In this document: in pieces, positions 1 to 3,033 of the stretch
How the letters are laid out: each line of letters starts with the position of its first letter
How positions within the stretch are numbered: the stretch's first letter is position 1
NCBI GenBank assembly: GCA_029907705.1
Contig: JARYLJ010000011.1
Coordinates: 1-52,483 of the forward strand
Direction: 5' to 3'
DNA from: Methanomicrobiales archaeon
GTDB taxonomy: Archaea > Halobacteriota > Methanomicrobia > Methanomicrobiales > JACTUA01
Length of the DNA: 52,483 nucleotides
Notes under the pieces: model-generated
What the model was told of the DNA's origin: nothing
Databases searched by the model: none
The model's input: the letters and a program-made list of their open reading frames with translations, nothing else
Translations under genes and position numbers: made by a program

Positions 1-679
1 GGCCGTAGATCGCCTGGGTCTCGGGGATGACCGAGAAGACGAGGCTTTTCCCGAAGGAGCCGGGCTTCCGGACTGATGCGGTGATACCGGAGGCGGCGGT
101 GATCCCCTGCCCGATGGCGGAGAGGCCGGCGAACCCGACGGCGAAACCGGCACCTATTGCCGCCCATCCCATCGCCTCTCCCACTTCTCCCGCCTCTGTG
201 AGGAACCCTGTGAATGAGAGGATCAGAATGGCGGTAAGAAGCCCGTAGATCGCCTGGGTCTCGGGGATGACCGAGAAGACGAGACCCCTTCCCACGGAGG
301 TGTCATCGCGGGAGGCAGCAGCAATGCCGGAGGCGGCGGTGATCCCCTGCCCGATGGCGGAGAGGCCGGCGAGTCCCACTGCAACCCCTGCCCCCAGCGC
401 AGCCATACCCATGGGAAGGGGAACCTCTTTCAGACCTCCGCCGAGCAATCCGGTGCTGAGCAGGATGAGGACACCCACGAGGAGGCCGTAAATCGCCTGG
501 GTCTGGGGAACCGCCTGAAAGATGAGGAAAGTGCTGAATTTCTCCTTCCGGGCGACAGAAGAGCCGGCGGCGGCCGCTCCTGCGATTCCTACGCCTATAC
601 CCGAACCGATGGCAGACAGGCCGACGGCAAGCCCTGCGCCGATGATGGCGAGCACTGCACCGAGCGTGAGTTCAGTCAT
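1..679 (-). CDS. atpK: A-type ATP synthase subunit K (proteolipid), at least three hairpins, partial
   Basis: Membrane rotor subunit of the archaeal A1AO ATP synthase, carrying the ion-binding carboxylates. The reading frame starts at ATG 677-679 after GGAGG and stays open to the window edge (226 residues visible). It contains tandem hairpin units of about 80 residues: residues 1-80, 81-160 and 161 onward. The ion-binding motif PETQAIYG occurs in units 2 (E140) and 3 (E220), while unit 1 has PQTQAIYG with Q59 in the glutamate position. The start overlaps the atpI stop by 8 bases, so the genes are co-translated. Methanosarcina-type K subunits have one hairpin of about 80 residues; duplicated and triplicated forms are known in other methanogens. 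Whether a fourth unit follows cannot be seen. The remaining atp genes should lie beyond the left edge. Confidence 0.93.
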   Translation of the reverse strand, partial: MTELTLGAVLAIIGAGLAVGLSAIGSGIGVGIAGAAAAGSSVARKEKFSTFLIFQAVPQTQAIYGLLVGVLILLSTGLLGGGLKEVPLPMGMAALGAGVAVGLAGLSAIGQGITAASGIAAASRDDTSVGRGLVFSVIPETQAIYGLLTAILILSFTGFLTEAGEVGEAMGWAAIGAGFAVGFAGLSAIGQGITAASGITASVRKPGSFGKSLVFSVIPETQAIYG

Positions 680-2657
680 TCGCCACCTCCTTTATCCGGT
701 AACTGAACCGCCGCGCAGAATGGAACGGGGTGAAGGTCCTGCCCCCGCCGGTGTAGAACTTGCCAAAGAACTCCACATACTGCAACCTGAGCGCATGGAT
801 CATCCCCCCCAGGGTCTGCAGGATCAGGTTGAAGATATGCCCTGCGATGGCGAATATGACACCGATGGGAATGACGTACGGGTGCAGGGAGGCGATCATT
901 CCGGCGAGGATATTGATCGTCATGGCAATACCGAGAGTGGCGAGATCGAGTGCGAGTATCCTCGTGTAGGAGAGCCAGTCTCCGAGAAAGTTCGTGATTC
1001 TGAAGAAAGCAAGCGGTCCATGTCCGTAGACGAGCAATCCGAGGCCCAGCAGCAATCCGATCAGCGAGGTGAGCTGGACCGGGGTCGAAAACCGGTACCA
1101 TCCGAAGAACCCCAGAACGAAGACGAGAGCGGCAGGCTGAAGAATGAACCAGACCGCCCGATCGGTGATCGCCTCCCTGATCAGACCCTCCCTGAGATGC
1201 TGGAGGGTGCCCAGCATCAGACCTGCATTGATCTGGATCAACCCGATCGCCAGTGCGACAATCAGGATAGTGACCGGGTCTGCGAGGGGATCGATCACCA
1301 TGAACGGCACCACGATACCGAAGAACCTCGGCAGCAGATCGCCGAAGAACCCACCCTGCAGCATTCCGAAAACCACGCCTGAGATGCCGCAGAGGAGCAA
1401 TATGAAGGAGAGATCGCGGAGCATGGGGTTCCATCGGCCGAACCTGAGAAGAGCGAAGACCGCCAGTATCGCGATGACCATACCGTAGCCTGCATCCCCC
1501 AGCATGAGGCCGAAGTACCCGACGATGAGAGGTGCGATCAGGATCGTTGGATCGATCTCGGTGTATTTCGGAACAGCGAACATTGTGGTCAGCATCTCGA
1601 AGGGTCGGAGCCAGCGCGGATGCTGGTAGGCGGTCGGCACCTCGCGCATCGCATTTTCGTTCATCTGGAACCGGCAGAACGCACATTCGTTTGTGACGAC
1701 ATTCACCAGCCTCTCGAGTTCTGTACGGTCGCTTTCCCGCAGATACCCCTCGATCACCACCATTTCGCGCGAAAGACCGGTGAGGGCAAGGGCCTCCTCC
1801 TCCTTCAGCCGTATCTCCACGTCCTCCATATAACCACGGAGCGTCGGGCCGATTTCGTGCGAAAGAGCCTCCATCTCCATCCGGAGCCTGGAGATCCGCT
1901 CGCGTGTACCCTGGAGCTCCTCTGCGTTGCGTAACAGGATCTCCTGCGGGCTGCCTTCGAGCCGGGGGAGCTGGATCGGCTCCCACATGACCGTGCGGAG
2001 ACGCCTCTCCAGTTCCTGCTGCAGCGAGACCTCCGCCGCTATCAGGAGCGTGGTCGTCTCCCCTGTCGTGCTCGAGTAGACCAGAACCCGATCTCTGCCC
2101 AGGCCCGAGATGGCCTCGAGCAGAGAGGGCGCCTCCGATCGCGGCAGAACGCCGGCGGTAAGATACAGATAGGCAGAAGTGCCCATATGCCTCGTGTCTA
2201 TGCCGAATGGCATCATTAGCTCCGCCCCCTTCCGCTCCCTCTCCAGCATCTCCCTCCTCTCCTCGAGGGAGGAGATCTCCTGCGATAACTGGAAGGCTCG
2301 CTCTCCTCTCCTGAGAAGCGGTTCGATCTGTTCCTTCAGCCGTTCGGCGGGAAGCTCAGGCACGGGTTGCGGCAGGGGTGACCCGGTACCCAGCATTTCG
2401 TGGAGCAGGGATCTCTCCCTCGGGTTCACCCGTTCGAATGCACTCAGGATGCGATCGATCTGCATGCGCAGATCAACGAGCATGGAGAGACGCGTACCCC
2501 TCTCTCCTGGAACGAGGGCGGGTGCATTCTCCCCGGGCCCTTCATGTACGCTCCTTATCTCTAGAAGACCGGCCTCGTGAAGCGATTCCAGGAGGGGGTA
2601 CACATACTTCCTGTGCACTCCGATGGTCGCAAAGAGCATCCTTGCCGGATATAGCAT
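672..2657 (-). CDS. atpI: A-type ATP synthase subunit I (a subunit)
   Basis: Stator a subunit of the A1AO ATP synthase (661 residues), forming the ion half-channels next to the proteolipid ring. The N-terminal half is soluble, charged and partly coiled coil (about 1-340); the C-terminal half is a multi-pass membrane domain containing the family motif LMLGDAGYGM and the characteristic C-terminal stretch with QYVEFFGKFY followed by GGGRTFTPF. Length matches the family. ATG 2655-2657 lies 1 base after the atpH stop, and the 3' end overlaps atpK, fitting the usual archaeal order H-I-K. A second in-frame Met (residue 7) is an alternative start. Confidence 0.95.
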   Translation of the reverse strand: MLYPARMLFATIGVHRKYVYPLLESLHEAGLLEIRSVHEGPGENAPALVPGERGTRLSMLVDLRMQIDRILSAFERVNPRERSLLHEMLGTGSPLPQPVPELPAERLKEQIEPLLRRGERAFQLSQEISSLEERREMLERERKGAELMMPFGIDTRHMGTSAYLYLTAGVLPRSEAPSLLEAISGLGRDRVLVYSSTTGETTTLLIAAEVSLQQELERRLRTVMWEPIQLPRLEGSPQEILLRNAEELQGTRERISRLRMEMEALSHEIGPTLRGYMEDVEIRLKEEEALALTGLSREMVVIEGYLRESDRTELERLVNVVTNECAFCRFQMNENAMREVPTAYQHPRWLRPFEMLTTMFAVPKYTEIDPTILIAPLIVGYFGLMLGDAGYGMVIAILAVFALLRFGRWNPMLRDLSFILLLCGISGVVFGMLQGGFFGDLLPRFFGIVVPFMVIDPLADPVTILIVALAIGLIQINAGLMLGTLQHLREGLIREAITDRAVWFILQPAALVFVLGFFGWYRFSTPVQLTSLIGLLLGLGLLVYGHGPLAFFRITNFLGDWLSYTRILALDLATLGIAMTINILAGMIASLHPYVIPIGVIFAIAGHIFNLILQTLGGMIHALRLQYVEFFGKFYTGGGRTFTPFHSARRFSYRIKEVAND

Positions 2658-2658
2658 C

Positions 2659-2970
2659 TCAACCCCCCGTCACGCGCTGCATGATCCATTTCACTGCGAG
2701 AGGTATGCGCGCTTCTGCCCTCTCCGCGATCTCCTGCTCCTCTCTGACCGCTTCCAATCGTATGCGTTCTGCCTCCCTTTCGGCGTTCTCTCTCGACATG
2801 CGAAGGATCCTGTCGCATTCCCTCTTCGCTTCTGATTCGATCATCTCCCTCTGGATTCTTACCCTCTCCCTCGCCTCCTTCAACAGGGCGTCGGCCCTCA
2901 CCCTCGCCTCGTTTATCAGGCGGAGTGCTTCGAGCTCGGCATTCTTCACCCGTTCGATCTCTTCTGCCAC
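2659..2970 (-). CDS. atpH: A-type ATP synthase subunit H (peripheral stalk)
   Basis: Small coiled-coil stalk subunit (103 residues), the usual first gene of archaeal atp operons. The protein is almost entirely charged helix (heptad-like runs of Glu, Arg, Ala and Leu across residues 5-90), as expected for the H subunit that pairs with E in the peripheral stalk. A GTG at 2968-2970 is taken as start; an in-frame TTG directly upstream (2971-2973) is possible. No strong Shine-Dalgarno is visible. It is followed after 1 base by atpI and preceded on the same strand by the UspA gene with a 60-bp gap. Confidence 0.85.
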   Translation of the reverse strand: MAEEIERVKNAELEALRLINEARVRADALLKEARERVRIQREMIESEAKRECDRILRMSRENAEREAERIRLEAVREEQEIAERAEARIPLAVKWIMQRVTGG

Positions 2971-3033
2971 CAACCTGAACCAACCCCTGCAACCTCTGAA
3001 GAGTGCGTCAGCATTTGATGCCTCTCCTGCGGT

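Follow-up and report, generated by a model that had tools for sequence, protein, structure and literature searches.

A multi-hairpin rotor subunit with capped chain ends and putative half-sites, probably Na+-coupled, in an A-type ATP synthase of Methanomicrobiales

The K (c) rotor subunit encoded at the edge of our window (the whole stretch of DNA that was analysed, 52483 bases, which is the entire contig C45 of an archaeal genome of 1.79 Mb in 70 contigs) very probably belongs to an A-type ATP synthase whose rotor is made of multi-hairpin chains with capped ends, in which ion sites are put together from half-sites and a chain of n hairpins holds n-1 internal sites, probably for Na+. From the protein sequences we conclude that this description should replace the original prediction of a triplicated subunit with a silent first hairpin. 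In the proposed scheme several hairpins are fused in each chain and every ion site would lie where two adjacent hairpins meet, hairpin i donating Thr, Gln and Tyr (the partner side) and hairpin i+1 donating the Gln of TM1 together with the Glu. The first hairpin would act as an N-cap offering a partner side only, and the last as a C-cap offering only Gln and Glu, with Phe at the partner positions, leaving n-1 complete internal sites and none at the junction between chains. Such a rule would make the "silent" hairpin a working part and the number of ion sites readable from the gene.

The K gene and its operon

The features on which the analysis is built are the following, all but the last on the minus strand.

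2..679, minus strand: K-subunit gene, a 226-aa frame that runs off the window end
440..679, minus strand: hairpin 1, the putative N-cap, with Val30 in TM1 and PQTQAIYG in TM2; bounds approximate
590..592, minus strand: Val30 codon (replaces the TM1 Gln ligand)
503..505, minus strand: Gln59 codon (replaces the ion-binding Glu)
200..439, minus strand: hairpin 2 (inner), with Gln111, Glu140, Thr141, Gln142 and Tyr145; PETQAIYG; bounds approximate
262-260, minus strand: codon of Glu140
2..199, minus strand: hairpin 3 (inner), with Gln191, Glu220, Thr221, Gln222 and Tyr225; PETQAIYG; cut after Gly226
22-20, minus strand: codon of Glu220
672..2657, minus strand: gene for subunit I (a), part of the K operon; overlaps with the beginning of K; PF01496, 72.4 bits against a cut-off of 30.7
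2659..2973, minus strand: probable gene for subunit H, lying upstream of I; the best NCBIfam match is AhaH TIGR02926, which at 41.2 bits stays below its cut-off of 48.5
1..55, no strand assigned: 55-bp word identical to positions 87-141 of contig C11; site of the assembly break

The K frame contains three PF00137 (ATP-synt_C) stretches (E 7e-47, 157.9 bits against a curated cut-off of 24), and Gln59, Glu140 and Glu220, whose codon positions were counted by hand, lie in these three hairpins just as predicted, which bears out the claim of a multi-hairpin K with its first carboxylate missing. A frameshift in the repeat region had been named as a danger to that claim; the window part is a single open frame that no stop interrupts. 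Hairpin 1 lacks a carboxylate and keeps the partner-side residues Thr60, Gln61 and Tyr64.

The triplicated K subunit of Methanocaldococcus jannaschii is also missing its first carboxylate, and the predicted kinship to this methanogen type holds up in that the window K shares the substitution and finds its best NCBIfam match in NF004913, a 220-aa model (229.5 bits, above the cut-off of 211). The number of hairpins does not fit: M. jannaschii K has three, as would any K of exactly the NF004913 type, whereas the window gene has three hairpins on C45 and two more on contig C11 of the same genome. C11 opens with 141 aa of K comprising two hairpins, an inner one with PETQAIYG and a last one with Gln and AETFAIFG, in which Gln and Glu are present and the partner residues replaced. 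Behind this 3' part of K follow E, C, F, A, B and D in that order, as identified by Pfam, and the gene for subunit I lies directly upstream of K on C45. The two contigs were joined through the split K gene and not by reads; since the 55-bp words at both contig ends recur exactly in a neighbouring hairpin (the first 55 bases of C11 again at C11 241-295), the gap between them looks like an assembly break. Three hairpins and two make at least five for the whole gene, so that the original "at least three" was sound for C45 but too low as a minimum, and triplication itself has to be given up.

A sixth hairpin is likely, to judge from relatives. On the A-subunit tree the window operon groups, on a starred branch, with L040, L072, L076 and L077; these four nearest relatives all have n=6. 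An attempt to settle the count from the assembly alone was dropped: the seven PF00137 matches of the genome do not include the missing K piece, and the first C11 hairpin has no clear assignment to position 4 or position 5 of the relatives.

Contigs that break at exact 55-bp repeats, and the readiness of repeats to collapse in short-read assemblies, raise the question whether the hairpin number or the Gln of hairpin 1 is simply an error in the repeat. We regard this as scarcely credible, for other genomes show the Q-first architecture within a single frame, among them eight n=6 genomes whose copy lies on a contig longer than 2 Mb (G011, G012, G017, G036, G115, G118, G129 and G159), and the longest exact internal repeat is at most 38 bp in 21 of the 29 K frames tested, with a maximum of 104 bp.

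Distribution among relatives

PF00137 was run against 41 genomes of the order, including the one studied here. Fourteen of the other genomes encode at least three hairpins in one K frame, six in 13 of them and three in one, and in all 14 Gln replaces Glu in hairpin 1. The comparison of K across Methanomicrobiales called for by the original prediction was then widened with a DNA pattern for the Q-first signature, present in 57 of 232 genomes of the order (own genome included), 39 of 392 of the phylum (a set overlapping that of the order), 10 of 389 in the phylum of G232, 3 of 115 in that of G240 and 3 of 237 in that of G238, two of these last without a K gene at the place; no K gene was found at the pattern matches L204 and L205. 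A search for relatives (best 80 of 144, making 78 loci) led to loci labelled Methanomicrobiales (several families), Thermoplasmata, DHVE2/Aciduliprofundum, Nanoarchaeota, Woesearchaeota and others; the named loci with n=6 include strains of Methanocalculus, Methanogenium and Methanoculleus.

Fifteen of the 57 pattern-positive genomes of the order (own included) had already been fetched and 40 more were added; G042 and G043 were left out because the gene starts about 0.5 kb or less from a contig end, and one pattern place in G242 (C108) lies outside the fetched set. Of the two-hairpin K genes picked up by PF00137, the loci read were 12 for 61 genomes and, among the matches listed, 12 for 97; the latter listing also shows a K frame in G257, apparently cut at its start, with no fewer than three hairpins. 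Loci L206-L225 served for operon and tree work only. The fetched frames were divided with a hairpin profile built from ten proteins of the order. The 162 K frames comprised 139 complete ones and 23 that were partial or other; removal of 37 exact duplicates (near-identical proteins being retained) left 102 distinct complete genes: 13 with n=2, 14 with n=3, 24 with n=4, 47 with n=6, three with n=12 and one with n=13.

Proposed half-sites and chain ends

Each hairpin can be given a side A (Gln and Glu) and a side B (Thr, Gln and Tyr). When side B of hairpin i is set against side A of hairpin i+1 in the 102 distinct complete genes, both are intact at 387 interfaces, both are broken at six and none is mixed, while the opposite pairing is mixed at 190 of the 393 interfaces. 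At the last-to-first junction of the chain all 102 genes have both sides broken. The TM1 residue of the N-cap is V, A or I in every one of the 102, and the C-cap always keeps its Q and E and never has a Tyr at the Tyr70 place (102/102 each), though the 102 are not independent events, since the caps are mostly inherited, motifs entered the pattern and the filter, and near-identical sequences were kept. The N-cap motif was part of the search pattern for most loci and of the filter for "complete" genes, as was, in the filter, the C-cap residue following ET; conservation of the cap motifs as such therefore proves little. Loss of the TM1 ligand, loss of the C-cap Tyr and the internal breaks were not selected for. 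It is the pairing statistic, the junctions and the alignment with NtpK (below) that point to hairpin 1 as a half-site donor and to n-1 sites for n hairpins.

The six internal breaks are of two kinds. One falls at the junction of two fused six-hairpin units (L078, L079); in the other an AETPSITA hairpin is followed by one whose TM1 Gln has become Leu, with the Glu kept (L090, L091, L194, L195). A third kind, PETHAISA followed by PQTQVIYG, occurs in the partial gene L227. The pairing was also obeyed in 17 of 17 two-hairpin K proteins that were found through PF00137, lack the PQTQ pattern and were read: L226 and L228-L237 (all from the phylum of G240), L239, which has an additional fragmentary profile match, and L054-L058. 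The four proteins with the second kind of break are six-hairpin chains broken at their third interface and functionally 3+3; if the half-site rule holds, they would have four sites on six hairpins.

These data bear directly on the simplest account of the window gene, namely that hairpin 1 is structural filler whose carboxylate disappeared by drift or as a way of lowering the ion-to-ATP ratio. The replacement of Glu by Gln59 and the absence of the TM1 Gln from the same hairpin are what such a loss would produce, but filler would hardly show Val30, Thr60, Gln61 and Tyr64 unchanged in all 12 six-hairpin proteins of the alignment, nor does loss sit well with the pairing data, in which 0 of 393 interfaces combine a broken side with an intact matching side on the adjacent hairpin. 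We therefore consider simple loss very unlikely and prefer the half-site reading. As to energetics, fewer sites per hairpin lower the ion cost per ring, and the ion-to-ATP ratio depends on the size of the ring; a ring of 12 hairpins built from two six-hairpin chains would have 10 sites and need 3.3 ions per ATP.

One layout falls outside the simple half-site rule. In G641 (L181/L209; L209 9663-10646) a three-hairpin K with Gln for Glu throughout, and T or N in TM1, adjoins a second K gene that encodes one hairpin with all the ligands; this pair is perhaps a two-gene rotor with few sites.

Comparison with known rotors and the coupling ion

The best PDB match of the window protein is NtpK of Enterococcus hirae (2bl2, E 5e-16), in which Leu61, Thr64, Gln65, Gln110 and Glu139 are the Na+ ligands, with Tyr68 beneath (PMC2359735). 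The alignment places LPGTQ and Y68 on hairpin 1 and Q110 and E139 on hairpin 2. NtpK has the same caps as the window family (residues counted from this alignment), an N-cap with Val34, LPGTQ 61-65 and Tyr68 and a C-cap with Gln110 and Glu139 followed by Tyr141 and Leu144, and the one Na+ site that each chain forms between its two hairpins corresponds to n=2 in the proposed rule. The first hairpin of the window K resembles that of NtpK in having V30 and Q59 in place of TM1 Gln and Glu together with T60, Q61 and Y64, and the C11 hairpin resembles the last one, with Gln and Glu kept and the partner residues replaced. The alignment of Thr60, Gln61 and Tyr64 with NtpK Thr64, Gln65 and Tyr68 argues against calling hairpin 1 silent, provided that sites form as they do in NtpK. 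The two differ in length: NtpK has two hairpins and one site per chain, and a ring of ten such chains, or 20 hairpins (PMC2359735), whereas the window gene encodes five hairpins or more, for which the rule would predict at least four sites.

Two methanogens are described in the same source. K is triplicated in M. jannaschii, and in Methanopyrus kandleri it consists of 13 hairpins, each with complete Na+ ligands (PMC2359735, citing Lolkema and Boekema 2003). The M. kandleri subunit is like the window K in the fusion of many hairpins in one chain and unlike it in that all 13 are complete, while the window family is capped at both chain ends and its hairpin 1 lacks both Gln and Glu; M. jannaschii K, with three hairpins, is shorter than both the window K and its six-hairpin relatives. 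NtpK and the triplicated methanogen K are shorter relatives of the capped multi-hairpin chain, and the half-site scheme would unite them with the chains of 4, 6, 12 and 13 hairpins. The same caps appear at n=2, unlike the window K, in the phylum of G240 (labelled Thermococci archaeon), where L228-L237 have a first hairpin with V or I and PMTQSIYG and a last one with Gln and AETMAIFG or AETTAIFG. The c subunit of Pyrococcus furiosus has one site.

The residues make Na+ the probable coupling ion. Coupling to H+, with the Na+ ligands persisting as ancestral leftovers, is a less likely reading that still deserves some weight, as some of these ligands do persist in H+ enzymes (PMC2359735) and no ion test of the window protein is known. 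Against it, hairpins 2 and 3 retain the full set of Gln, Glu, Thr, Gln and Tyr, and in eight genera of Methanomicrobiales the set that ProAD predicts to prevail is one Na+-type A-ATPase beside two H+-type enzymes (PMC11738941).

The other A-ATPase operons of the genome

The genome has two additional A-ATPase operons, both on contig C16, each with a one-hairpin K (motifs Q...PETLVILG and E...PETIVIFG) and with A and I subunits whose best matches are A- and I-subunit models. The one-hairpin form expected for this lineage is present, twice, and the multi-hairpin signature is also frequent in the order, as given above. The three operons agree with the ProAD set and with the three A-ATPase clusters reported for Methanospirillum hungatei JF1 (PMC4704411), likewise a member of Methanomicrobiales with several such operons; the locus labelled M. 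hungatei (L128) has n=3, as against at least five in the window K. The K of the third operon (L010, contig C16 27092-27271) has a Glu at the TM1 ligand place in addition to the TM2 Glu (E...PETIVIFG), a double Glu that recalls the two-carboxylate motif of Fusobacterium (PMC3692424).

Hairpin number and ring size

The values of n raise the possibility, which we put forward tentatively and hold to be rather doubtful, of a divisor rule: a ring fixed at 12 (or 24) hairpins, with evolution altering the number fused per chain. Each chain would cost one site at its junction, so that gene fusion could change gear while leaving the ring unaltered; on a 12-hairpin ring, n=2, 3, 4, 6 and 12 would give 6, 8, 9, 10 and 11 sites and 2.0, 2.7, 3.0, 3.3 and 3.7 ions per ATP. 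If ring size is constant, hairpin numbers would form a natural series of gear ratios in methanogens living on very small energy yields. All values seen except 13 divide 12, and neither n=5 nor n=7-11 occurs among the 102 distinct complete genes; the evidence is modest, because among values up to 6 only 5 is missing. A quick A-subunit tree, in which 19 of the 77 inner branches are open forks, needs a minimum of 15 changes of n for 74 rows with n of at least 2. Running counter to the rule are L095 with n=13, a gene of G240 with n of at least 8 (L093 plus L227, on two contigs sharing 117 bp, one of them with a frame break) and the 20-hairpin ring of NtpK (PMC2359735), and duplication of hairpins in pairs and triples could produce the same series.

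The n=12 genes, three in all, come from MAG contigs of 9-66 kb, which also counts against the rule; they are of two kinds, a single long chain and a fusion of two six-hairpin units; in L078 (1159-4548) and L079 (5217-8579) two complete six-hairpin units, caps included, lie in each 12-hairpin frame. Collapse of repeats as a source of n=4 or n=3 is unlikely, with longest exact repeats of 11-71 bp in ten n=4 genes and 14-17 bp in two n=3 genes, a verdict that is weaker for single draft genomes. An odd hairpin hidden in the Thermoplasmatota K frames, which are about 100-150 aa longer than their hairpins account for, was also considered and set aside, their N-terminal part reading by eye, among the 28 K frames inspected, as a signal-peptide-like stretch and a soluble domain. 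A literature search, with subscription journals mostly outside it, returned no six-hairpin K, no half-site rule for more than two hairpins and no divisor rule; the K-subunit alignments of ProAD grouped by hairpin number (PMC11738941) sit in supplements outside that search.

Other variants of multi-hairpin K

Multi-hairpin K proteins of the Thermoplasmatota type, in L073 (7689-9584), L084, L104, L117, L120, L194 and others, begin, as judged by eye, with a signal-peptide-like start and a soluble domain of about 100 aa before hairpin 1, an odd place for a domain, on the outside of a rotor. In L073 this extra domain is a PKD domain (PKD_4, E 2e-17); the N-terminal parts of L117 and L083 had no Pfam match, and a DNA-polymerase-type match inside the hairpins of L083 was taken for spurious. 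Five Methanomicrobiales genomes (L054-L058) have a two-hairpin K (APLTQTIYG ... TETVALL) with a cysteine-rich KCAACACDAM stretch; in L054 (234-6666) its companions in a compact cluster are A, B, two shorter genes and I, and its best NCBIfam match is NF005174. In L069, L102, L118, L133 and others, labelled Methanoregulaceae and Methanospirillum, the inner hairpins read CETQAIYG, with Cys in place of the Pro before the Glu.
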